From: a virus
DNA: 23,837 nucleotides
Reading direction: 5' to 3' (one strand)
IMG/VR virus record: IMGVR_UViG_3300034108_000378
Coordinates: 1-23,837 of that record
This document shows positions 2,769-23,837 of the stretch, one piece after another. The position numbers and the translations under genes are program-made. Within the stretch, counting starts at the first letter, position 1. Every line of letters begins with the position of its first letter. The notes beneath the pieces were generated by a model. That model was not told the DNA's origin. It saw only the letters and a program-made list of their open reading frames with translations, and did not search any database.

Positions 2769-3014
2769 ATGAAAAAGCAAACAGCAGTTGAATGGTTAAG
2801 ATGCCAATTAGACGAATTAGAAATGACAAAGAATAAGCGGTCTTTAGTTCTTCAATATGACTTAATATCCGAAGCGTTTAATCAAGCCCTCGAAATGGAA
2901 CGCCAACAGATAATTGATGCGCACAAAGACAATGCGGTTATGTACGAAATGGACGCAACTGCACAAGCCGAACATTACTACACCCAAACATTCACAGAAC
3001 CCAAAAACGATTGA
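2769..3014 (+). CDS. Hypothetical Bacteroidota phage protein ('AVEWLRCQL' type)
   Basis: An 81-aa protein from ATG 2769. Reading further upstream in this frame only gives a shadow of the gene before. The order TAVEWLRCQLDELE, FNQALEMERQQIIDAH and AEHYYTQTF matches a short helical protein I have seen repeatedly in phages and prophages of Bacteroidota, without a known function. No enzyme motif. Its leader, like those of its neighbours, has 'AAACGATATG', so a shared A-rich initiation context rather than a Shine-Dalgarno site is likely. Confidence 0.65.
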   Translation: MKKQTAVEWLRCQLDELEMTKNKRSLVLQYDLISEAFNQALEMERQQIIDAHKDNAVMYEMDATAQAEHYYTQTFTEPKND

Positions 3015-3402: not shown

Positions 3403-3807
3403 ATGGCAGCACCTTCTATCTACAAAAAAGAGTTTAATCAGATCGCACTTGACCTAATGAGAGAGGGTGCATCAATCGTTGAGGTTTGTGCAGAAATTGG
3501 TATTGCACGGGAAACTTTATACGATTGGACTAACCCAGAATCGGATCGTTTTAACCCTGAGTTTTCTGACACCATAAAATTAGGAAGGCAATTATGTCAA
3601 GCGTGGTGGGAGAAAAAAGGACGTGAACACTTGATCGAAGAAAGCGAAATGAACGTCCAAACGGGTACAAGTAAATCGAAACGGTTGAACACTACTGCTT
3701 GGATTTTCAACATGAAGAACCGATTTAAGGACGAGTGGAGTGATACGCATAAACAAGAAGTTGAGGTTAAGAATATGCCCGACTGGATGCAAGATGACAC
3801 TAAATAA
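3403..3807 (+). CDS. terS: Terminase small subunit
   Basis: This 134-aa protein should bind the packaging site on phage DNA and guide the large terminase. Residues 17-42 (DLMREGASIVEVCAEIG, then ARETLYDW) form a helix-turn-helix as in other TerS proteins. The later segment QAWWEKKGREHL and WIFNMKNRFKDEWSD matches the oligomerisation part of Bacteroidota and HK97-like TerS. The C-terminus ends DWMQDDTK and overlaps the large-subunit gene by 14 bases. Length is normal for the family. Position directly before terL supports the call. Confidence 0.85.
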   Translation: MAAPSIYKKEFNQIALDLMREGASIVEVCAEIGIARETLYDWTNPESDRFNPEFSDTIKLGRQLCQAWWEKKGREHLIEESEMNVQTGTSKSKRLNTTAWIFNMKNRFKDEWSDTHKQEVEVKNMPDWMQDDTK

Positions 3808-4933
3808 GAACTTACAATTCTTAATCGATAACGTACCTAATAAACGCATTATCGGGCTTCAGGGCGGAACAAGGTCGGCTAAGACCTATTCCGCTTTGCA
3901 GTTTATAATAAGGTTGATCGGGAACTATTCGGGCTTTAAAATATCAATTACCCGCGATACGTACAATGCACTCAAAGCAACCGCAATGGAGGACTTCTTC
4001 GAGTTGGTTAATTCGGTAGGCATGTATCATCCAAAGAATTACAACAAGACCGATCATATTTATTATCATAACGGGAATGTAGTTGACTTTTTCGGATTGG
4101 ATTCGCCTGGCAAAGTTCAAGGACGCAAACGGCATATCTTGTTAGTTGATGAAGCGATTGAAGCGGATTGGGATGTCGTTACTCAGTTGAAGCTACGAAC
4201 AACACATAAGATAATCTACTGTTTCAACCCGTCCTTAATTGAACACCCGATCTATACTGATTTGAGCCGCGATGATGCAGCCGTATGTATCACAACCTAC
4301 AAAGACAATAAGCACCTAAACGAAGCGACCATTGAAGAAATCGAACGGTTACGACTTACCGATCCTGACTTGTGGCGTGTGTATGGTGAAGGGATGCCAG
4401 CACAAGCGAGGGATTCTGTTTATACTCATGCTATCATTGCACCTGAACAACACGTAACCGATTACTGCTATGGGCTTGACGTTGGTTATCAACACGCAAT
4501 GTCATTGATCGAAGTAGGTAAGGTAGGTAATGCAATCCAAGCGAAAGAAGTAATATACGCTACTAATATAACCACGTCCGATTTATTACGAATGATGGAG
4601 GGTAAGGTAGATAAGCGAACAATGATTCACGTAGATTCTGCACGACCCGATGTGATTGTCGAATTACAGCGGTCGGGCTATTTGGCTAAAATGGCTAACA
4701 AGAGCGTAACTGCGGGGATCAACGTAGTTAAATCAAGACCGTTGTATATTACGTCCGATAGTGTAAATTTACAACGTGAAATCAAATCTTATCGATACAA
4801 CCCAAACCGACCCGATGAAGTCATTAAGCAACACGATGACGGCATGGATGCGATGCGTTATGGTATTGTCGGTCTTATTGGTTTCGGTACAATCAAATCA
4901 GTTAAAATGTCAATCCCAAGCGAAACACAATGA
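3794..4933 (+). CDS. terL: Terminase large subunit (packaging ATPase and nuclease)
   Basis: A 379-aa motor protein that drives DNA into the prohead and cuts concatemers. I chose ATG 3794, which overlaps terS by 14 bases; the upstream frame lies inside terS. The N-terminal ATPase has Walker A GLQGGTRSAKT (residues 21-31) and Walker B HILLVDEA with Asp119-Glu120. FNPS near 144-147 fits the coupling motif. The C-terminal RNase H-like nuclease has acidic residues at GLDVGY (Asp229), HVDSARPD (Asp281 or Asp286) and HDDGMDA (Asp348-Asp352). It is shorter than many TerL proteins (about 420-550 aa) but has all the expected motifs. The next gene overlaps by 4 bases. Confidence 0.93.
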   Translation: MTLNKNLQFLIDNVPNKRIIGLQGGTRSAKTYSALQFIIRLIGNYSGFKISITRDTYNALKATAMEDFFELVNSVGMYHPKNYNKTDHIYYHNGNVVDFFGLDSPGKVQGRKRHILLVDEAIEADWDVVTQLKLRTTHKIIYCFNPSLIEHPIYTDLSRDDAAVCITTYKDNKHLNEATIEEIERLRLTDPDLWRVYGEGMPAQARDSVYTHAIIAPEQHVTDYCYGLDVGYQHAMSLIEVGKVGNAIQAKEVIYATNITTSDLLRMMEGKVDKRTMIHVDSARPDVIVELQRSGYLAKMANKSVTAGINVVKSRPLYITSDSVNLQREIKSYRYNPNRPDEVIKQHDDGMDAMRYGIVGLIGFGTIKSVKMSIPSETQ

Positions 4934-5610
4934 AGCTACCATTTAAAGGAATCGAAATTACATTACCCGTTTGTTGGGAAGATGTAACGTACAAACAATG
5001 GATCGAAATTCTTAAGATCAGTAAAGAACCATCCGACAGATATACTGACATGAGAATCGTTTCGGTGTTATCTGGATTGACTTATGGTGAGGTGCAGAAC
5101 TTAAGTCTTGAAGCATGGGGGATGGTTACTGATTGCATTAGTTTCATTACGGATGAAGAGGTCGATTACAAACGAATCGCAGCAAGTAAGCCACCGTTTC
5201 AATTTACTGTTAACGACAAGGTCTACAACCCAACGATCAATTTCAATAAGTTCAAGACCGCTCAAATGATCGCTTACCAAGACCTATTCAAAGACGGTAA
5301 GGTAGCAGAAGAAATGATCGGTAAGGCGGTTGCGATTTGTTTAGTTCAAGGCGAGTATAGCGATGAGGTAGTGGATGAGTTGGAGCGTGGCGTTATGGGG
5401 TTGCCTTTTATGGATGCGTTGACATTGCACGGTTTTTTTTTGAACACATATCTGAGTTTAATCGAATTACAAAAGCCGAAAGCCGAGAGCCCTCACCTGA
5501 AGAAGTTGCATCAGGTTTTACGGAAATCCCGAAAAAATACAAGTGGTTTTACACGCTTCATTCGCTTACTGATGGGGACAAAACGAAAGAAAGTTACTAT
5601 CTCAATTTAA
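4930..5610 (+). CDS. Tail assembly chaperone (gpG-like, unshifted product)
   Basis: A 226-aa product if read without frameshift. It begins LPFKGIEITLPVCWEDVTYKQW, then IVSVLSGLTYGEVQNLSLEAW, a layout I associate with tail assembly chaperones of Bacteroidota siphoviruses. Residues 1-170 look like a true folded protein. The last 56 residues in this frame turn basic and poorly protein-like (RKSRKNTSGFTRFIRLLMGTK), while the -1 frame beyond a run of nine T at 5433-5441 looks truly coding. This is what the conserved G/GT tail-chaperone frameshift would give. It starts in an ATGA overlap with terL. A homopolymer error joining one 260-aa gene is the alternative. Confidence 0.65.
   Translation: MKLPFKGIEITLPVCWEDVTYKQWIEILKISKEPSDRYTDMRIVSVLSGLTYGEVQNLSLEAWGMVTDCISFITDEEVDYKRIAASKPPFQFTVNDKVYNPTINFNKFKTAQMIAYQDLFKDGKVAEEMIGKAVAICLVQGEYSDEVVDELERGVMGLPFMDALTLHGFFLNTYLSLIELQKPKAESPHLKKLHQVLRKSRKNTSGFTRFIRLLMGTKRKKVTISI
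5433..5442 (+). promoter_or_regulatory. Candidate -1 ribosomal frameshift site (T-run)
   Basis: In the chaperone frame the codons read GGT TTT TTT TTG, so both T TTT TTT and T TTT TTG fit the X XXY YYZ slippery pattern. A -1 slip enters an open frame running to 5711. A second slippery heptamer, A AAA AAT at 5532-5538, is in the same frame and would reach the same C-terminus. A 6-bp hairpin (ACCTGA 5495-5500, TCAGGT 5511-5516) lies downstream of the first site but is too distant to be a usual stimulator. Confidence 0.5.
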
Positions 5611-5711
5611 GTGTTATGGAGTTGCACGTAACGATGAAGATGCGATCAGATATACAAGCAGCCGAAAAGAAATACAACAAACTGATTAACGACAAATCCA
5701 AAAGAAAATGA
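5439..5711 (+). CDS. -1 frame extension of the tail chaperone (T-like part)
   Basis: Reading -1 from the T-run gives 90 further residues, for a fusion of about 260 aa. The stretch KKYKWFYTLHSLTDGD is followed by KESYYLNLSVMELHV and AAEKKYNKL. The 'W..T...L..GD..K...' core resembles the C-terminal part of Bacteroidota phage tail chaperones. The frame is open from 5361 (TAG at 5358-5360) to TGA 5709-5711, and its stop overlaps the next ATG at 5708. It has no good start of its own before an internal ATG at 5616, which supports expression by frameshift, or one continuous gene if the T count is wrong. Confidence 0.6.
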   Translation, partial: FEHISEFNRITKAESREPSPEEVASGFTEIPKKYKWFYTLHSLTDGDKTKESYYLNLSVMELHVTMKMRSDIQAAEKKYNKLINDKSKRK

Positions 5712-7588
5712 GTACACTAAGAGCGGTTGAGTTAATCAAGACAGCAGCCGAAAATATAACAGGCTTCACGTTTATAACGGGAACGAGGCTATTGAATAAC
5801 ATCGAAGCAGACGATCAGCGATTGCCGTTGATTATGTTAGTTCGTCCGTTATCGATTCCAGTAACTATTGCAAGCGGTGGGCGGTTACGAGATAGCTACC
5901 AATGCTTAGTGATCTTTGCAAGTAAGTCGGAGTTAGAATATCAATTCGCTTTGCACGAGCCTATTGTTGGTGATATGCGTTTGGCTGCGGATCAGTTCTT
6001 TGTTAACTTGAATAGCTTTTCCGATTACGTTCAATCGATTAGTTCAATCACTTACGCGGATTACATCAATGACTTCGATGCGAACTTAACGGGTGTAGCT
6101 GCAACCTTTACTCTTGAATTGATTCCATTGGATGAGCAAGTGTGCCCAACGGGAACTTTTGTACCTGAAGACTTACCACCGTTTAGTCGTTACTTGACTG
6201 AGGTTGCTGTTGACGGCGTTACGATAACAGGTAACGGCACAACTGAAGATCCATTGGTGGCAATCGGAGGAGGAGGTGGTGGTGGATCGCTTCGTGTACA
6301 AGACGAAGGAACGACCGTAACCAATGCAGCGGCATCGATAAACTTCACGGGTAACGTAACGGCTTCACTTGCATCGGCTGGCAACGTAACGGTTAATGTT
6401 CCTGCTGAAACGCCACAAGTAAACGCTGACTGGAATGCTTCAAGTGGTGTTGCTCAGATATTAAACAAGCCAACACTTGCAACCGTTGCGACAAGTGGCA
6501 GCTATACCGATTTGATTAATCAACCAAGCATACCACCCGCTCAGGTTAATTCGGATTGGAACGCTGTTAGTGGTATTGCTGAGATTCTCAATAAACCGTC
6601 AATCCCTGCTGCACAGATTCAAAGCGATTGGAATCAAGCCAATAACGCTGCACTTGACTTTATCAAGAACAAGCCAACCATCCCATCGACATCGGGGTTA
6701 GTACCTTACACGGGCGCAACAACAAATGTAGATTTAGGAACCCATACTTTAAGTGCTAAAGACTTAGTTATTAGCCATCCAAGCGGGTCGGGTGTTGCTG
6801 CATCGATTACTAAAGGCGGTAACGGCGAGGCTTTGACAGTTGTTAAATCAAGCGGTTCAGGTAATGCTGCATCGATAACGGGCGGTGTAACATTGATCGA
6901 TGAGTTACATTTGACTACTGACTTAGCCGATAGTTACATTGCGAGTGCTGCGACTTGGAACGCAAAGCAAAACGCACTATCAGCAGGAACGGGAATAAGT
7001 TTAGCAAGTAACACCGTAACCAACACAGCACCCGATCAGACGGTCGTTATTAATGCAGGGGCGGGAATAGGGGTTTCGGGTACTTATCCAAACTTCACCA
7101 TCGCCAATACATTACCCGCTTTGCCCATCAAACAAGTAATCGGATCGGCAACCGAAACGAGCGGCACGGCTATCACTCAGCTATCTTCATTACTTATCGA
7201 AGGTGGTTGGTTGACGGCAAATATGATGGCTCAGGTATTTGCTCGAAATCATAAGGTAGGGGCGAATAACGGCACAACGATTAGACTGTATTTGAACGAT
7301 GCAAACAACTTAACGGGAGCGGTATTGTTGGCCACGTTTGGAGCGGCTGTAAATGGTGCGTCCTCGTTCTCAGATATAATGCGTAGGATAACAATAGTAT
7401 CCGCAACGGAAACATACGTGGTGCTAACATCTACATCGTCATCCAACGACATCGGTAACTTCCAAACGTCAATACTAAATGTGAATTGGGCTACTGACAA
7501 ATATTTGATAGCAACGGGTCAAGATATTAATGGCTCGGATGTTACCAAAAACATTCTTTTACAAATCGAAAAATACGTAAACTCATAA
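5708..7588 (+). CDS. Tail-terminator-like protein fused to a tail-fibre region
   Basis: A 626-aa protein of two parts. Residues 1-150 (RLPLIMLVRPLSIPV, YQCLVIFASKSELEYQ, then DMRLAADQFFVNL) look like the small tail-terminator/completion domain that caps tails. A linker with seven glycines (187-193) follows. Residues 238-326 hold three 'SDWN...ILNKP' repeats, and VPYTGATTNVDLGTHTLSA (from about 334) is typical of Bacteroidota phage fibres. Residues about 470-626 form a beta-rich C-terminal domain that may bind a receptor or glycan. The fusion would place a fibre at the neck or tail end. It overlaps the gene before by 4 bases and the next by 1. The terminator call is less certain than the fibre call. 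Confidence 0.65.
   Translation: MSTLRAVELIKTAAENITGFTFITGTRLLNNIEADDQRLPLIMLVRPLSIPVTIASGGRLRDSYQCLVIFASKSELEYQFALHEPIVGDMRLAADQFFVNLNSFSDYVQSISSITYADYINDFDANLTGVAATFTLELIPLDEQVCPTGTFVPEDLPPFSRYLTEVAVDGVTITGNGTTEDPLVAIGGGGGGGSLRVQDEGTTVTNAAASINFTGNVTASLASAGNVTVNVPAETPQVNADWNASSGVAQILNKPTLATVATSGSYTDLINQPSIPPAQVNSDWNAVSGIAEILNKPSIPAAQIQSDWNQANNAALDFIKNKPTIPSTSGLVPYTGATTNVDLGTHTLSAKDLVISHPSGSGVAASITKGGNGEALTVVKSSGSGNAASITGGVTLIDELHLTTDLADSYIASAATWNAKQNALSAGTGISLASNTVTNTAPDQTVVINAGAGIGVSGTYPNFTIANTLPALPIKQVIGSATETSGTAITQLSSLLIEGGWLTANMMAQVFARNHKVGANNGTTIRLYLNDANNLTGAVLLATFGAAVNGASSFSDIMRRITIVSATETYVVLTSTSSSNDIGNFQTSILNVNWATDKYLIATGQDINGSDVTKNILLQIEKYVNS
6419..6685 (+). repeat. Three 'SDWN...NKP' fibre repeats in coding DNA
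   Basis: Within the fibre gene, protein repeats start at residues 238 (VNADWNASSG), 280 (VNSDWNAVSG) and 304 (IQSDWNQANN), each ending in N-K-P followed by T or S. Repeats of this type are common in phage tail-fibre shafts. At nucleotide level they have diverged, so they are old rather than recent duplications. Confidence 0.75.
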
Positions 7589-9759: not shown

Positions 9760-11735
9760 TACAGTTAGTCGTTAACGATATTGAATTAGACTTGTTTCCC
9801 GATACTACGGTGGGCTTGTCGAAGCGTGCCGCGAACATCGGAAACTTTAATGGGCGGGCGGGTAGCTTTACCAATAAATTCAGCGTACCGTTAACTTCTA
9901 AGAACAAAGCAGCATTAGGATTTCTGCAAGCTAACACGACATCTCGCACCGTTTATGAAGATGTGAATGGTAAGTTAGTATCGGACGGGATTGAGATAGT
10001 GAGTAACGTGCGAATTGTTATCGAACAAGTTTCGGACGTTGCGGAATTACAGTTAAAGGTTGATACGGGCAATCTATTCGACCTACTGAAAAAGACCAAG
10101 CTAAGATCGATCTCATTACGCGACTACGATCATAGATGGAATCAAGCGTCTATCGTTGCGGCTAAAGATAACGTATGGACTGATGCTTACACTTATCCGA
10201 TATTTCAGAACGGTGGGCAGTTATCAGCATTTCAAACGGTAAACTGTAAAGGGTTGATCCCGTGGGTTTATGTTAAGTTCTTAATGAACCGAATCGCTAA
10301 TCAGTTCGGTTATAATTTCGTTGGTAGTGGTTATACCGATCCATTGCTTGAAAAGTTGGTGTTACCAATTAGTGCAGCTAAAAACGACAAGTTAATAATG
10401 AATGATTACTTGGTCGTTTGTGAAGAGGTTGGGCGGGTTGATTGGGATATATTAAGCACGGGCGGCACGGCTAACATTTCAGGTATTAGTAGCGGCTTTG
10501 TGAATTGTGCTGTTGATAGTTTAACTGCTGAAACAGTTGATCGTTGGAGTATCGTTAACAGCAATCAAGGCTATTCGGTTGGAAGTTCTTTAAAGACGGG
10601 ATTTGAGTTATTGTTAGCGGGTACGTATAAATTCAAACTCACCTATACAATCAGGTTGTACGATGCTTTTGGAAGCGGTTACTTTGGTGGAGTTTGTTTG
10701 TTTCGTAGGTTAGGAACGGCAACGACCGCAGTATGGTTTGATAGTTACCCAACGATGGGCACATTTGGCGGGGAGGTATTTATTGATGTTACCAAAACCA
10801 ATATACCCGATGATAGCTTCACCAATTCGGATGAGTATCTGTACTTATGCGGGTTTAGTGGCAACACAGCAAGCACACCCGTTGCAAACGTATCGATTGA
10901 ATACACTATGCAGTTAACGCTTGTTGAGTGCAATTTGGAAACAACTACCTACAACCGTCCGATCACACTTTCACCAAACCTTCCCGATTGGGATTGTGGT
11001 AAGTTTTTTAAAGAGATAGCAAACTTTACGGGATCATCTTTTCAAGTGGATGAGTACAGCCGTGAGATTAGAATGTTCAAACTTAACGAACTTGAAACCA
11101 ACAAGGCAAACCCTTATGATTGGTCTGATAAGTTGACGATTAACAATGCGGCACAATTCAGATTTGAGTTAAGTGGATTGGGTAAAAAAACATTATTCAG
11201 TTACGACAAGTTTGATATTTATAGTTACTTGCTTAACATCAGCAATACTCAACTACCCGAAAATGAAGACTACATAAAATCTGATTTTGTACCTATTGAA
11301 CAGCGTAACGCGATACGATTAGAAGGTATTGCATTTATTGACATTTGGGATGGGGATAATAACCGTAACAAGTTTGATGATAAAAATCGTGTTGGACTAA
11401 TCAGAACAACAACGGGTACTACCTACGCTTCGCCTAACCAATCCGCAATAACACCAAGCGGAACGGATAACGTAGGCTATTTTGACGATGTTAATAACTT
11501 TTCATTGGATTGGGCGGTGTTGTATGTGGAATACTACTCACAAGTATTGGATAATTTAGCACCTGACATATTGGTATTGGATGCTGAATTTCTGCTTAAC
11601 TGTTTAGATATTCAGAATTTTGATTTTAGTGTGCCCGTTTATCTTTCTCAATACGGGGCTTACTATTTTGTCAATGAGATAAAAGAGTTTACGACCCCTA
11701 ATGACGTAACATCGGTAACACTTGTAAGGATATGA
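9756..11735 (+). CDS. Large tail/baseplate protein
   Basis: A 659-aa protein. The N-terminus (IELDLFPDTTVGLSKRAANI, then GSFTNKFSVPLTSKNKAALG) fits a pattern recurrent in Bacteroidota phages: a short beta domain with 'F...F.VP.T..N'. The middle (LRDYDHRWN, then WVYVKFLMNRIANQFGYNF) is also typical of that family, whose members are structural and often thought to belong to the baseplate hub. The C-terminal part (PVYLSQYGAYYFVNEIKEF) is beta-rich. It starts in an ATGA overlap and ends in another. No enzyme motif is seen. The role is inferred from family resemblance and position. Confidence 0.65.
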   Translation: MIQLVVNDIELDLFPDTTVGLSKRAANIGNFNGRAGSFTNKFSVPLTSKNKAALGFLQANTTSRTVYEDVNGKLVSDGIEIVSNVRIVIEQVSDVAELQLKVDTGNLFDLLKKTKLRSISLRDYDHRWNQASIVAAKDNVWTDAYTYPIFQNGGQLSAFQTVNCKGLIPWVYVKFLMNRIANQFGYNFVGSGYTDPLLEKLVLPISAAKNDKLIMNDYLVVCEEVGRVDWDILSTGGTANISGISSGFVNCAVDSLTAETVDRWSIVNSNQGYSVGSSLKTGFELLLAGTYKFKLTYTIRLYDAFGSGYFGGVCLFRRLGTATTAVWFDSYPTMGTFGGEVFIDVTKTNIPDDSFTNSDEYLYLCGFSGNTASTPVANVSIEYTMQLTLVECNLETTTYNRPITLSPNLPDWDCGKFFKEIANFTGSSFQVDEYSREIRMFKLNELETNKANPYDWSDKLTINNAAQFRFELSGLGKKTLFSYDKFDIYSYLLNISNTQLPENEDYIKSDFVPIEQRNAIRLEGIAFIDIWDGDNNRNKFDDKNRVGLIRTTTGTTYASPNQSAITPSGTDNVGYFDDVNNFSLDWAVLYVEYYSQVLDNLAPDILVLDAEFLLNCLDIQNFDFSVPVYLSQYGAYYFVNEIKEFTTPNDVTSVTLVRI

Positions 11736-11896: not shown

Positions 11897-14428
11897 ATGG
11901 CTGAAGAAACTGAAAAGATAATACTTGACATTCAATTCGATACTGAGCAAGCGACCAAGAACTCACTCGAATTGCGTAAGTCATTAGCCGAATTGCAGGC
12001 TCAACAAAAGACGTTAAAGGCATCGGGTCAAGACCTGACTGAAGAGTATATCCAAAACGCGGTTGAGTTAAAGCGATTAAGTGCCGAGGTTCGTACAAAC
12101 GAAAATCAGTTACTTAAAGCGGCACAAGCCAATAAGGCAGCAGAAGGTAGTAACAACCAATTAAAAGCAAGCCTATCAGTTTTAACCGCTCAATTCAATT
12201 CTTTATCCAAAGAAGAGCGGACTAACACCGTAGCCGGTCAAGTTCTTGAAAAGTCAATTCAAAACATTACCAATACGCTTAAAGGAACTGAAGAAGGGAT
12301 CGGAGATTTTAGGCGGCAAGTAGGAGGCTATAAGCAAGCGATTGAAGAATCGTCTAATTCTATTGCGGGGCTTCGAGCAAGGTTAAAGGAACTTGATGAC
12401 ATTATTCAAAATACTGACATCGGTTCGCAGCGATTCAAGGACGCATCAGACGAAGCGGCTAACCTTAGATTATCCATTGAACAAGCTACGGGCAAGGTCG
12501 ATGAGTTTGGTAATCGTGAACCTAAGAACCCCGTTAAGCGAACGTTTGAAGATGCTTTAATCACAGTCGGTTTGCTCGGTTCGGGATTCCAAGCATTATC
12601 CGCTCAGTTTGAAGGTAATGAAGACGCACAAAAGAAATTAGCCACAGCAGCACAAGGGGTTAATGTCGCGTTGAACTTAGCCAATATCATCAAAGAAAAA
12701 GGTGCAATCATTGACACGTTAACGCTTGCTAAGACAAACGCACTAACAGCCGCCACAGCAGCCTATACTTTTGTCGTAGGTACATCAACGGGCGCACTTA
12801 AGATATTCAGGTTAGCACTCGCAACAACTGGGATCGGGGCGTTGGTAGTTGGTGTAGGTTTGCTTATTACCAATTTTGATAAGGTCAAAGAAGCGGTGTT
12901 AAGATTTATACCGGGTCTTGCCGCAGTTGGTGAATTTATCAGTAAGGCTACCGATGCGTTTTTGGACTTCATAGGCGTTACGGACGATGAAACCAAATCA
13001 CTTAAGAACCAAGAAACGCAAGTACAAAAACTAATCAATGCGGAAACAAGACGCTTAGACCAAGCCAAACAATCATTTACTCAACGTAAGCGATTACTTG
13101 AAGCAGCAGGAAAAGACACGCAAGCATTACAGATCGAAGAGGAAAAGTTTTTCAGGGATCAAGCGTTACGTCAAATCAAGTTTATTGAATCACAGCTTGG
13201 ACTAATAAAGACCGTTTCTGCCACAGCATTTGCAGGGGCGAAAGCAGAAATTCAAAGACTTCAAGACGAGGTTGCAAATCGAACGGTTGAGGTAACGGCT
13301 ATTCAAATTGAATCAGCACGGGAAGCAGCAGAAGAGGCAAAGAAGATTCGTGAAGAACAAGAAAAGAAAGAAAAAGAAGCACTTGAAAAACGAAAGAAAT
13401 TTGCTCAGTCAATTAACGATCTTGAAATAGCTGAAGCTGCTGCGGTTGCGGATGCTAAAAAGAAACAACTTGAAAAAGAAGACGAGCAACGTAAAAAGAA
13501 TATTGAAGCCGCTAAAGCAGAACTTTCAACTTTAACAGTAACAACACAAGAACAACTTGAAGCAAGGACTTTACTACGACTTACAGCGGCACAAGCAAAC
13601 ATTGATATTGCAGCATTAGAGAAAGAAGGAATATTAATACAAAGTCAAGAAACTGCATTAGCGTTGATTGAACTTGAAAAGACATCGGGATTAGAACGTG
13701 AACAGATAGTTCTTGACTATAACGCATTTGTTGAAGAGCAAGGCGACATTAGTTTTGAAAAGTTTCTTGAATTACAGCAAGCACAAGTTGACGTACAAAA
13801 TGCTGCATACGAACAACAAGCAGCCGCAGCAGTCGCGTTCGGTCAATCTGTTACAGCAGTATTTGAACAATCACTAACCGAAACGGGATTAGACCTTCAA
13901 AAGTTTAGTCGTGGTGTTATTACCTTACTTCTTGACACATTGCAAAAAACCGTTAATGCTTCATTGGTTGAAATCGTAGCCAAACAAGTCGCATCAAAAG
14001 GCGTGGTAGGTTTAGCAACTGGAGCGGCATTATCCGCAGCGGTTAACATCGCATTTAGTTTGGCTAAGTCGCAAATCAATAAACCAACTCCGAAAGCATT
14101 TGCAAGAGGTGTGATCGGTTTAGAAGGGGCGGGAACGGAAACATCAGATTCGATCCCCGCTTATCTATCGCGTGGAGAATCGGTAATCCCTGCATGGGGC
14201 ACACGGGCAATTCAAAATATGTACCCAGGCTTTCTCGAAAATTTCGTAGGTTCGCCAAAGTTTCGAGATGGTGTAATCGATTTTCAACCGAGCGTTACAG
14301 CAGCATCAGACGGTAATAATAATTTGATCGATGCAATCCGTTTACTACCCGCTCCAATCGTTCGGGTCGCGGATATAAACAAAGGTCAAAACGATTATGC
14401 AGAAGTTAGGTTAAGCGGTACAATATGA
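11897..14428 (+). CDS. Tail tape measure protein
   Basis: An 843-aa protein that should set tail length and pass into the host envelope during DNA entry. Residues 1-200 and about 375-650 are long charged coiled coils rich in Glu, Lys, Gln and Ala. A hydrophobic region lies at about 280-345, with ALVVGVGLLI near 313, and another near 700-725 (GVVGLATGAALSAAVNIAF). The C-terminal SRGESVIPAWGTRAIQN, preceded by SDSIPAYL, is the common 'S.GE.VIPA' signature near the end of tape measures. It is the longest gene in the window, as expected. At 843 aa it predicts a tail of roughly 120-130 nm by the usual 1.5 Å per residue rule. Confidence 0.88.
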   Translation: MAEETEKIILDIQFDTEQATKNSLELRKSLAELQAQQKTLKASGQDLTEEYIQNAVELKRLSAEVRTNENQLLKAAQANKAAEGSNNQLKASLSVLTAQFNSLSKEERTNTVAGQVLEKSIQNITNTLKGTEEGIGDFRRQVGGYKQAIEESSNSIAGLRARLKELDDIIQNTDIGSQRFKDASDEAANLRLSIEQATGKVDEFGNREPKNPVKRTFEDALITVGLLGSGFQALSAQFEGNEDAQKKLATAAQGVNVALNLANIIKEKGAIIDTLTLAKTNALTAATAAYTFVVGTSTGALKIFRLALATTGIGALVVGVGLLITNFDKVKEAVLRFIPGLAAVGEFISKATDAFLDFIGVTDDETKSLKNQETQVQKLINAETRRLDQAKQSFTQRKRLLEAAGKDTQALQIEEEKFFRDQALRQIKFIESQLGLIKTVSATAFAGAKAEIQRLQDEVANRTVEVTAIQIESAREAAEEAKKIREEQEKKEKEALEKRKKFAQSINDLEIAEAAAVADAKKKQLEKEDEQRKKNIEAAKAELSTLTVTTQEQLEARTLLRLTAAQANIDIAALEKEGILIQSQETALALIELEKTSGLEREQIVLDYNAFVEEQGDISFEKFLELQQAQVDVQNAAYEQQAAAAVAFGQSVTAVFEQSLTETGLDLQKFSRGVITLLLDTLQKTVNASLVEIVAKQVASKGVVGLATGAALSAAVNIAFSLAKSQINKPTPKAFARGVIGLEGAGTETSDSIPAYLSRGESVIPAWGTRAIQNMYPGFLENFVGSPKFRDGVIDFQPSVTAASDGNNNLIDAIRLLPAPIVRVADINKGQNDYAEVRLSGTI

Positions 14429-14661: not shown

Positions 14662-15237
14662 ATGAAAGACCAAAACCCTTACTTAGCAATTTGCACAAAC
14701 CGTTCAAGCGAATTAGTACCACTTTACAATCAAGCGTTCTTAGATTATCAAGGCATCGTTTGTTCGTCCGTAATAAACGAAAAGCCGAACAAGTACATAA
14801 TGAATTTGCATAACGAGTTTATTGATACCGCGGCTATTGTATTGAATATTTCAGAGAATGTATTCGTGTTTGATATGGAGGCGTTGTTATCCTTTGCTAC
14901 CCGTCAAGTGATTGAACGGATCGAAGTATGTGGAGTAACTGCGGCACAAGGTCATGTTCAAATGAGTGATGCGTTTAATATCATCATTCCAAAGACTACG
15001 ATAAGCGGAAAGAACTATTTCGCTCAAATGCACCAACTCGAAAAGGATTTATTCATTACCTACGATTTTGCTAAAGACGCCCCTGGCATTTTATTATTAA
15101 ACCAAGCGGGGCTTCCCTTCGCTATTTGGGCGGGTCAAATTAAATATGCTAAGTGCCCACCGATTGACTTTGATGCTTGCTATCAGTACGCACTTGAAAA
15201 GAAAAATCAGTACATCACAGCAGAACAAACAGCATGA
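14662..15237 (+). CDS. Unknown protein at the head of the glycosyltransferase cassette
   Basis: A 191-aa protein beginning NPYLAICTNRSSELVPLYNQ. The opening 'LAICTNR' recalls the first strand of GT-A proteins, but I see no DXD motif where it should lie. VFVFDMEALLSF and AFNIIIPKTTISG suggest alternating strands and helices, and LPFAIWAGQI is hydrophobic. It is followed with a 4-base overlap by a glycosyltransferase, so it probably works with the cassette. It could be a degenerate sugar transferase or an accessory factor. I do not assign a function. Confidence 0.5.
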   Translation: MKDQNPYLAICTNRSSELVPLYNQAFLDYQGIVCSSVINEKPNKYIMNLHNEFIDTAAIVLNISENVFVFDMEALLSFATRQVIERIEVCGVTAAQGHVQMSDAFNIIIPKTTISGKNYFAQMHQLEKDLFITYDFAKDAPGILLLNQAGLPFAIWAGQIKYAKCPPIDFDACYQYALEKKNQYITAEQTA

Positions 15238-16222: not shown

Positions 16223-16896
16223 ATATAGCAGTTATCATTTTAGCAGCCTCGACCGATCAAGATAAGATCGAAATGACACAAGCGGCGATCGATTCTGTTA
16301 AATCAAAACAGCACCGTGTTAATGTGTTGGTTGTTGATAGCCACGTATTACACCCGTATCGAAACGCTCGTACGATATTACAACAAGAACCGTTTAACTA
16401 CAACCGAAACTTAAAAGAGGGCATCAGATACATCGTAGCGGATCAAATCACTTACGATTATTTTTTGGTCCTGAATAACGATGTGTTGCTTGGTGAAAGT
16501 TGTATCGACAATCTTATAAACACGGGATTAGATTCATGCAGCCCGAAAGACCCGACATTGGCAATACACGAAGCCTACAAAGGTATTACATTCGGTTATC
16601 GAACGTCTTATCAACTTTGTGGATGGGCTTTGATGTTTAGCCGTTACTTACTTTATGAATGTGGCATCGATACGTTATTCCCGAATGAATTACCGTTTTG
16701 GTTTCAGGATAACTTCTACGGTCATGTTATTAAGGCTAACAAGTTTCAACACGCACTAATCGCAGACGCTCATTGCATCCATCTTGAATCGAAAACACAC
16801 GACCTACTTACTAACCGCCACGACCTAACAGAAGGGCTTAGACCAAAATACGATGAACTTATCCGACAATTCGATCTTCAGTTTTCCGCCCGTTAA
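16219..16896 (+). CDS. Glycosyltransferase, GT-A fold (family 2-like)
   Basis: A 225-aa protein. It begins NIAVIILAASTDQDKIEMTQ with RVNVLVVDSH next, the first two strands of a GT-A fold. YFLVLNNDVLLGE (Asn86-Asn87-Asp88) is in the DXD position. Residues 137-165 (YQLCGWALMFSRYLLYECGI) and WFQDNFYGHVI match the 'G..m...R.......FD..F..Y..D.D' acceptor region of family 2 enzymes. It is a different subtype from the transferase at 15234. It starts in an ATGA overlap with the SufE-like gene, so the two are translationally coupled. Substrate unknown. Confidence 0.72.
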   Translation: MNIAVIILAASTDQDKIEMTQAAIDSVKSKQHRVNVLVVDSHVLHPYRNARTILQQEPFNYNRNLKEGIRYIVADQITYDYFLVLNNDVLLGESCIDNLINTGLDSCSPKDPTLAIHEAYKGITFGYRTSYQLCGWALMFSRYLLYECGIDTLFPNELPFWFQDNFYGHVIKANKFQHALIADAHCIHLESKTHDLLTNRHDLTEGLRPKYDELIRQFDLQFSAR

Positions 16897-17533
16897 CCAA
16901 TCAGATTATCTAAGTGCCGAACCTTTTGCGCACGCTACGTTCAAAGATATTTTCAATCGTGAATTTCTTGTTACGGTTGCTAATGAGTTTCCCGATTTAG
17001 CGATCAATGCGGATCGTATCTTTAACAACCATCACGAAAAGAAACACGTTACATTCGGAGAATCGAAGCTGTCAGACAGCGCAAAGACTTTAGTAAGGTT
17101 CTGTAATTCCGAGCCGTTTCTATTATGGCTTACCGAATTAACTGGCATCGAAAATCTTATGCCCGATCCTTATCTTATCGGAGGCGGTTACCACGAAATC
17201 AAGACGGGCGGTAAGTTAGGTATTCACGTTGACTTTGATAAGCACGGCACATGGGGAGCAAATCGAAGGATTAACGTACTGATTTATCTAAATGAAGATT
17301 GGCGTCCTGAGTGGGGCGGTGGAATAAAACTTTACGATACCGATCTAAATGAAAAGGTTTGTGTTAATCCCGAACTTGGCAATGTGGTAATATTCAGCAC
17401 GACTGATAAATCTTGGCACGGACATCCTGAACCTTTAACGTGCCCGAAAGACAAGAGCCGTAAGTCAATCGCATTGTACTATTATACCGCTCCCGAAATG
17501 GATTGGAAAGGAAACGACACAATCTTTAGATAA
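16853..17533 (+). CDS. 2-oxoglutarate/Fe(II) oxygenase, prolyl-4-hydroxylase-like
   Basis: A 226-aa oxygenase that should hydroxylate its target with O2 and 2-oxoglutarate. GIHVDFD gives the HxD iron ligands (His125, Asp127), SWHGHPEPL the distal His (His189), and SRKSIALYYYT the Arg (Arg203) for 2-oxoglutarate. RRINVLIYLNEDW and EWGGGIKLYD are the usual core strands between them. Phages use related enzymes on proteins or nucleobases, and some work on glycans. The start overlaps the transferase before it by 44 bases; no better in-frame ATG lies later without removing conserved sequence. Target unknown. Confidence 0.8.
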   Translation: MNLSDNSIFSFPPVNQSDYLSAEPFAHATFKDIFNREFLVTVANEFPDLAINADRIFNNHHEKKHVTFGESKLSDSAKTLVRFCNSEPFLLWLTELTGIENLMPDPYLIGGGYHEIKTGGKLGIHVDFDKHGTWGANRRINVLIYLNEDWRPEWGGGIKLYDTDLNEKVCVNPELGNVVIFSTTDKSWHGHPEPLTCPKDKSRKSIALYYYTAPEMDWKGNDTIFR

Positions 17534-21279: not shown

Positions 21280-22341
21280 ATGGGAATTATCAATTTAAAC
21301 ACGGTAACGTGGAACGGTCAAGAGGTTAAAGACTTCGCTGAAGCCACATTTGAAAAGGTATTTGAGAAACCTCAGATTACCGAATTTCACACAATCGAAG
21401 AAAACATCGTAGCTAAAAAGCAAATCGTATTTCTTGGTTTACTTGCAAAGGTTACTAAGAAGGATGCGGGTTGTTCTTCTACACCAACAAACGGAGTAAT
21501 CGCAGCAACTCAGAAATTCTGGGATCCTGAAACTGTGGAAATCTGGCAGTCGGAATGTTACGCGAACTTGGAAGGATCATTCTTGGTTTACGCTAAGAAA
21601 CTCGGCATCGCACAAGCAGACTTAACTGGCACGACATGGGCACAATTCTTATCGGATCGTTTAACTGATGCGATGTTAGAAGATGCTTTCCGTATCGTTT
21701 GGTTTAACGACAAAGATGCTGCGAACTATGATGATTCTCCTGCGGGTAAAATTACCAACGGTGTATCTGTAACGGATTACAATATCATCGATGGTTTGTT
21801 TAAGCAATTAGATGAGATCATCGCAGCAGACCCAAGCCGCCACGTTGACATCCCTGAAAACGCAACAGCTACATACGCTCTTCAAGATGCGCTTGCTACT
21901 GATCGCGCTTTCTTGGTATTCAAAGCGTTGTTAAACACATCGGATTACCGCTTACGCACGCAGCCCGATCAAATCATCATCGCAACACAATCACTTGTTC
22001 AAAACTATGTGGATTTCTTGGAATCGAAATCACAAGTATTTGAATTGACGGCAACAATCAACGGTATTCAGCAAGTATCGTATCGCGGTCAAGTGTTGTA
22101 TGGCTTTAACTTCTGGGATCGCACCATCCGTGCTGACTTCGATAACGGTACTAAGTGGGACAATCCACACCGTGCGTTATACACTACCAAATCTAACCTT
22201 GTAGTTGGTGTTGATTCTGCTTCTGCGGTTCAAGATTTCGAGGTATGGTTTGAACGTAAAGACAAGACTACCAATATGCGCGGAATGTACAAGATCGATG
22301 CGAAAGTGTTGGAAGATTATCTTGTTCAATACGCTGTTTAA
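21280..22341 (+). CDS. Major capsid protein
   Basis: A 353-aa protein directly after the protease/scaffold gene. FAEATFEKVFEKPQITEFHTI, FLGLLAKVTKK, then FWDPETVEIWQSECYANLEG and WAQFLSDRLTDAMLEDAFRIVWF resemble capsid proteins I know from Bacteroidota phages, which are taken to have the HK97 fold. No N-terminal delta domain is clear; the scaffold function would sit in the preceding protein. The leader is A-rich (AAATAAGAAATGG), which favours strong translation in Bacteroidota. Assignment is from position plus family resemblance. Confidence 0.8.
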   Translation: MGIINLNTVTWNGQEVKDFAEATFEKVFEKPQITEFHTIEENIVAKKQIVFLGLLAKVTKKDAGCSSTPTNGVIAATQKFWDPETVEIWQSECYANLEGSFLVYAKKLGIAQADLTGTTWAQFLSDRLTDAMLEDAFRIVWFNDKDAANYDDSPAGKITNGVSVTDYNIIDGLFKQLDEIIAADPSRHVDIPENATATYALQDALATDRAFLVFKALLNTSDYRLRTQPDQIIIATQSLVQNYVDFLESKSQVFELTATINGIQQVSYRGQVLYGFNFWDRTIRADFDNGTKWDNPHRALYTTKSNLVVGVDSASAVQDFEVWFERKDKTTNMRGMYKIDAKVLEDYLVQYAV

Positions 22342-23415: not shown

Positions 23416-23837
23416 ATGTCAACTGCAAAGATCACTTCAGGTAAAACCAAGCAGCGTGTAGTATTGCCCGATTATAAACGGGAAATGATTGAGGCTTATG
23501 ATGCTGACAATAGCTATCCTGAGAGGGTTAGGGACATTGTGCTTGCTTCAGGGGTTGCACGGGCTTGTACCGAAATCTTTGCACGTTACATATTCGGAAA
23601 CGGTATAAGCGATCCTGAACTGTTTAAAATGGTCGTAGATCGAAAAGGAACGACATTAGACAAGTTGCTTAGAAAGTGTGTTGCTGATTATGCTTTGTGG
23701 TATGGTTACGCTATCCACGTTCAATACAATGCGTTTGGTGAAAAGATCGGTTACACACACCTACCTTTTGAATATTGTCGTAAAGGCATTAAAGACAAAG
23801 AGGGGTTAATCGCGGTGTATGATAATTGGGATCGAAG
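23416..23837 (+). CDS. Portal protein (N-terminal part, cut by window edge)
   Basis: 140 residues are visible from ATG 23416 to the edge. YDADNSYPERVRDIVLASGVARACTEIFARYIFGNGI is followed by LDKLLRKCVADYALWYGYAI and HLPFEYCRKG. This is the usual opening of portal proteins from Bacteroidota phages: a helical 'NRYP...' start, a 'C....I.G.G' helix and a 'D...YG...' strand. Portals form the DNA-entry ring at one capsid vertex. The gene runs off the right edge. Confidence 0.8.
   Translation, partial: MSTAKITSGKTKQRVVLPDYKREMIEAYDADNSYPERVRDIVLASGVARACTEIFARYIFGNGISDPELFKMVVDRKGTTLDKLLRKCVADYALWYGYAIHVQYNAFGEKIGYTHLPFEYCRKGIKDKEGLIAVYDNWDR

Follow-up and report, generated by a model that had tools for sequence, protein, structure and literature searches.

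A conserved run of nine T as a candidate frame-switch site in a chaperone-like phage gene

Organization of the locus

The sequence studied, referred to as the window, is the whole 23,837-base stretch of an IMG/VR virus record, and the features described in this section all lie on its plus strand. The terminase large subunit gene (3740–4933; phrog_2, 1e-33; PF04466, 9.1e-15) stands immediately upstream of an open reading frame at 4930–5610 that is defined by the ORF list, the alignment of relatives and a structure model, and that encodes a 226-residue protein, the putative G-like short product. The N-terminal 167 residues of this protein share between 68 and 21% identity with six aligned relatives, and its AlphaFold2 model has a mean pLDDT of 80.6. 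Within this 0 frame lies a run of nine T (T9) at 5433–5441, which is unique in the window, a run of eight occurring once and a run of seven twice. The 0-frame codons across the run are GGT TTT TTT TTG, placing a T_TTT_TTT heptamer (5433–5439) in slippery phase. The -1 frame extension spans 5442–5711 and ends with a TGA at 5709–5711, as judged from its translation, from the relative L003, in which it is 73% identical, and from a scan for start codons. Joining the 0 frame to the -1 frame at T9 yields a fused product of 260 residues, the T-like C-terminal domain of which is helical in the structure model. Both frames are open at 5442–5610, an overlap delimited as dual-coding by a drop in synonymous change and by the profile along the gene. 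The coordinates of T9, the reach of the -1 frame to 5711, the two product sizes and the slippery codons ahead of the switch had all been given correctly in the original prediction. It was mistaken in supposing that a count of eight T would restore one frame, since a -1 shift is equivalent to one T more or two fewer. The second slippery heptamer to which it drew attention, A_AAA_AAT, is present and in phase at 5532–5538, but it is found only in the window (1/25 contigs) and is probably irrelevant to the shift.

The stop of the long product is overlapped by the start of the next gene (5708–7588; taken from the ORF list and a homologue of 153 residues in L003), and the tape-measure protein is encoded further downstream at 11897–14428 (phrog_20660 tape measure, 6.8e-10). 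The order terminase, T9 gene, next gene and HK97gp10-like gene is common to the relatives L003, L010 and L012 and to Bacteroides phage BS-TP3.

Conservation of the T run

Relatives were gathered from viral contigs, with both the protein and alignments as queries, giving a set of 25 contigs, the window included, that have T9 and a long -1 frame with the full overlap. Exactly nine T in identical codon phase are found in 25/25 of these contigs, down to about 20% protein identity, and 24 of the 25 are distinct over 300 nt (150 nt on each side of T9). In an alignment of 17 sequences, identity to the 0-frame product of the window goes down to 18%. The 25 loci, 195,472 bases in all, contain 28 T runs of at least nine, 25 of which are the T9 site; by these sequence counts, the presence of T9 at the site is far beyond chance. 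The codon that carries the first T of the run varies (GCT in 16 contigs, AAT in five, GGT in three, AGT in one), so that the wobble T is kept despite different amino acids, and the base following the run is G in 23 contigs and A in two. Alignment of homologues had been proposed as a check of the original prediction, and overlap, frame change and slippery run are indeed conserved in 25/25 contigs. A 26th contig, L021, ends 27 codons past the site and was removed by the filter for a long -1 frame; its T9 has the same phase, and neither frame meets a stop before the contig ends.

Duplicate contigs were collapsed (L003=L005=L008=L038; L035=L039; L034=L040; L009=L017; L002=L004=L013=L041=L042; L010=L027; L011=L023; L012=L015). 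L030 and L033 do not reach the site, L006, a 24% terminase relative, lies outside the comparison, and L001, L036 and L037 are not counted separately. Some scans used patterns containing FFFE, which require T's at the site and hence carry an ascertainment effect; L002 and L043–L046 were recovered with patterns not touching the site, and T9 is present in these too. Searches of phages by tblastn gave no match for the 0-frame ORF, the -1 part or the fused protein of L012, and two scans of genome contigs returned nothing; one of the alignments offered no segment of sufficient conservation for a further search.

Selection on both reading frames

Synonymous rates were compared in 19 of the 25 sequences (clade A, n=3; clade B, n=16; L034 and five L002-type sequences excluded). 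In both frames and in both clades tested, pS amounts to 0.22–0.30 in the overlap as against 0.53–0.75 outside, i.e. synonymous change is down by half or more in either frame. In clade B, frame 0 has a pS of 0.526 ahead of the overlap and 0.224 inside it, and frame -1 has 0.265 inside versus 0.531 after it; the equivalent values in clade A are 0.749 and 0.264 for frame 0 and 0.304 and 0.744 for frame -1. Along the gene, the frame-0 drop begins around T9. The pN/pS ratios of the clade B overlap (0.48 and 0.36) are far from those of wrong-frame controls (1.64 and 2.22), whereas the clade A ratios (0.68 and 0.58) are closer to their controls (0.69 and 1.18), so that the argument there is the fall in pS. 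As synonymous change drops in the overlap in both frames, both products seem to be selected, and on the substitution pattern both frames are under purifying selection in the 19 sequences tested. Together with the conservation of site and overlap in 25/25 contigs, the constraint on both frames in these 19 supports the programmed -1 transition at T9 that had been predicted.

Past T9 the unshifted frame had been described as ill-formed. It is instead conserved and keeps the same tail length within clades, namely 55 codons in the window, L003 and L035 and 46 codons in 16 clade-B contigs. The chance of such an open 0-frame tail given the -1 protein lies between 0.0055 and 0.13 in four sequences, which is a weak test, and the claim of dual coding therefore stands on the substitution test instead.

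Isolated phages and single-frame relatives

In BFVD the 0-frame model matched P12024S_38 of Nonlabens phage P12024S (E 6.8e-6), a gene that comes after the terminase gene and contains T9 at 23578–23586 of JQ823122. Past this run the -1 frame is open and runs into the annotated P12024S_39, and the gene of P12024L has the same T9. The alignment of the fused profile to the fused protein of P12024S spans the junction and has an hhalign probability of 92.8 (E 4e-7, 207 columns), as compared to at most 0.28 for four other window proteins and at most 0.96 for ten shuffles. The two Nonlabens phages are thus alike to the window in having T9 at the corresponding place of a homologous gene after the terminase, with an open -1 frame in P12024S. 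They differ in that the run starts at codon position 2, not 3, T_TTT_TTT still being in phase, and in that _38/_39 and _40/_41 are annotated as two separate hypothetical genes.

A different arrangement is found in Bacteroides phage BS-TP3, where gp55, like the 13 viral loci found with it, has both parts in a single frame; T runs of six or more are absent from 13/13 of these BS-TP3-like loci. The gp55 family is homologous to the window family across the junction (hhalign probability 96.9, E 1.8e-10) and occupies the same place after the terminase, but it is encoded in a single frame, has no T run and has a shorter N-terminus. It gives no match to P12024S (hhalign probability 0.6), and gp55 matches phrog_28240, a family of unknown function, at 1.6e-30. 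Relatives that encode the whole protein in one frame without a slippery run had been named in advance as counter-evidence; they occur only in this distant BS-TP3-like group and do not refute the shift in the window, which appears to be confined to one part of the family. One single-frame relative, at 3001–3423 of L059, stops early, at 141 codons, in comparison with L058 and is possibly decayed or mis-sequenced.

Several candidates were rejected as homologues with hhalign probabilities of at most 14.3: phi46:1 gp16, the 191-residue protein of phage 6H together with its downstream frame, and BK687P3 gene 26. The 6H protein is a weak BFVD fold match to the 0-frame model, and in this phage (L061) a coding-looking frame in another phase, without a listed CDS, lies downstream of the 191-residue gene at 10352–10927. 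BS-TP2, Riemerella CRP6 and Olleya Harreka_1 were dropped as comparisons because the portal gene follows the terminase there, and ARB25 and MT835636 were scanned for long T runs only.

Two products from one start

How could a single gene make use of both frames? It seems probable that two proteins are produced from one start by way of T9, in a manner working like lambda G/GT. Most expression would remain in frame 0 and give the predicted 226-residue protein, and a fraction would shift to the -1 frame at T9 and give the predicted 260-residue protein with a differing, helical C-terminal domain. The short and the long form would have about the first 170 residues in common, and T9 would set the ratio between them.

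Other readings of the T run have to be weighed against this one. Homopolymers are prone to error, and the original prediction regarded a wrong T count, from sequencing or assembly, as the main alternative, the gene then being truly single-frame, as both parts are in the distant relatives. However, the same count recurs in 25/25 contigs and in two isolate genomes, and the 0 frame past T9 is conserved too; with T9 and overlap conserved in 25 contigs and both frames under selection, an error in the count can be regarded as ruled out for all practical purposes. Replication slippage at T9 might also toggle the long product between genomes, since phase variation can arise at long runs of A or T (PMC3711429). 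Such toggling is highly improbable, as neither a T8 nor a T10 variant was found in the 25 contigs and two isolates and both frames are selected simultaneously. It could further be imagined that the -1 part is an independent gene that overlaps the first and is translated from a start of its own; L003 does have a -1-frame GTG, 12 nt ahead of T9, and P12024S_39 and P12024L_41 are annotated as genes on their own. In 24/25 contigs, though, the -1 frame has none of the codons ATG, GTG and TTG from its upstream stop to T9, the first downstream start being 84–198 nt past T9 or absent, and constraint begins around T9, all of which makes a separate gene very unlikely. In L002-type sequences the -1 frame is open only from T9, fixing the position of the shift there.

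Polymerase or ribosome slippage

Within the two-product explanation the frame may change at transcription, when RNA polymerase slips on T9 and adds a U, or at translation, when the ribosome slips on U_UUU_UUU, and both may act. Polymerase slippage was left out of the readings offered in the original prediction. Insertions by polymerase are described to increase steeply with run length (PMC5574713), and E. coli polymerase to slip at T7 and T8 at 5% and 10% in poly(T7/8) reporters (PMC6260861). Nine is reported as the run length at which many bacterial genomes show selection, and a 9-mer conserved together with the overlap is given as the criterion for slippage sites (PMC1088944). An A/T run of about nine, conserved along with the ORF overlap, is observed in 25/25 contigs and two isolates. 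Two known systems resemble such a mechanism. In Shigella mxiE overlapping ORFs are joined to a longer protein by a nucleotide inserted at a U run (PMC1088944); the protein is unrelated, and slippage has been shown for mxiE but is only inferred for the window gene. In Thermus thermophilus dnaX slippage on nine T leads to two products (PMC5009743), of which, in contrast, the shorter is the novel one (PMC1088944), and again the protein is unrelated.

Ribosomal -1 frameshifting on U_UUU_UUU, with tRNA-Phe in both P and A sites, would leave the two-product reading unchanged and is a serious possibility, which we would put at somewhat less than an even chance. A heptamer of the X_XXY_YYZ type, T_TTT_TTT, is in phase in 25/25 contigs and in P12024S and P12024L despite the differing phase of the run, the two further T's deriving, on this reading, from flanking codons and dual coding. 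Shifts of that kind are classical in tail chaperones, including that of lambda (PMC5009743), and the order of tetramers established for E. coli puts U_UU.Y second behind A_AA.G (PMC4066793). On the other hand, U_UUU_UUU shifts less than A_AAA_AAG in E. coli (PMC5009743), and a fixed length of nine would be unnecessary. No consistent stable downstream hairpin was found in the 13 of 25 sequences folded, although in three of these 13 the region downstream of the site folds below background in part of the folding windows (L028, z -2.9; L044, -2.6; L035, -2.0 to -2.3), and no Shine-Dalgarno-like element was noticed upstream by eye. Since T_TTT_TTT and dual coding of the next codon explain most of the T's, T9 by itself does not separate ribosome from polymerase. 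Because the length of nine is invariant even with the other codon phase of P12024S, and because a consistent hairpin is missing, we lean slightly toward slippage by RNA polymerase. That this phage lineage sets the ratio of short to long chaperone-like protein by polymerase slippage on a conserved T9, and not by ribosomal frameshifting, is accordingly put forward as a tentative proposal with not quite an even chance of being right.

We know of no earlier tail-chaperone switch made at transcription, and searches of the open-licence literature brought up no paper describing T9 or slippage of RNA polymerase for tail chaperones; a polymerase-made switch would, to our knowledge, be the first of its kind for these proteins. 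The same two-protein ratio would then be reached at different steps of expression across phages, comparable to dnaX.

Possible function as tail assembly chaperones

A short product accompanied by a -1-extended one, the position among structural genes and the lack of a small ORF just before the tape measure together suggest a chaperone pair. A G/GT-type tail assembly chaperone, as named in the original prediction, is therefore plausible for the gene pair, considering its architecture, its place in the gene order and the weak fold matches; the two-product architecture is supported by the sequences, while Pfam and PHROGs contain no family naming either part as tail chaperone, the only match being phrog_28240. 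The 0-frame model superimposes on the HK97 tail chaperone 2ob9 with a Z score of 2.7 (70 residues, rmsd 4.4), tied with unrelated chains, and among the mostly unnamed BFVD matches a single one, at E 2.6e-3, bears the name tail assembly chaperone. A Foldseek search of the PDB with the 0-frame model gave nothing at E <= 0.001. For the T-like model no BFVD hit was significant, and its PDB matches are common helical arrangements only.

The lambda G/GT pair and its HK97-type relatives are similar in producing a short protein and a -1-extended one with the N-terminus in common, from an in-phase slippery heptamer in the structural region of the phage. The slippery motif of lambda is GGGAAAG, in contrast to T9 here, and the window family further differs in its overlap of 46–55 codons, in having no sequence family match and in its weak fold match. 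The position differs as well, as the window gene comes after the terminase and is separated from the tape measure by about 6.2 kb. A tail chaperone gene directly upstream of the tape measure is usual but not universal, and the ORF list contains no small chaperone-like ORF directly upstream of the window tape measure. Chaperones of the lambda type bind the tape measure and the tail-tube protein and do not occur in virions. By analogy with lambda G the short form would coat the tape measure, and by analogy with lambda GT the long form would recruit the tail-tube subunit.

The locus represents a family of chaperone-like genes, so far unannotated, whose shift site is a homopolymer. The family also occurs in the cultured phages P12024S and P12024L, in which each of its two parts is listed as a hypothetical protein on its own. 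As the long product is missed by gene callers, tail modules of such phages are mis-annotated.

Neighbouring genes and host

The host is probably a bacterium of the Bacteroidota, judging from terminase and capsid matches to phages of Bacteroides and Flavobacterium. The probable major capsid protein is encoded at 21280–22341 (phrog_38780, 2e-42) and is about 30% identical to a BS-TP3 protein. In the product of the gene at 5708–7588 a conserved N-terminus is joined to a poly-Gly linker and to a long region resembling tail fibres (phrog_9729, 9.1e-17), and its homologues in L010 and L012 carry another, shorter extension. A short ORF at 114–794 resembles a C5 cytosine methylase, the Pfam match covering the first 83 of 324 model positions only. 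In the interval from the tape measure gene to that of the head protease, a 2OG-Fe(II) oxygenase (16853–17533; PF13640, 1.9e-17) is encoded among ORFs at 15234, 16219 and 17533, which look glycosyltransferase-like by eye but are without a Pfam match.
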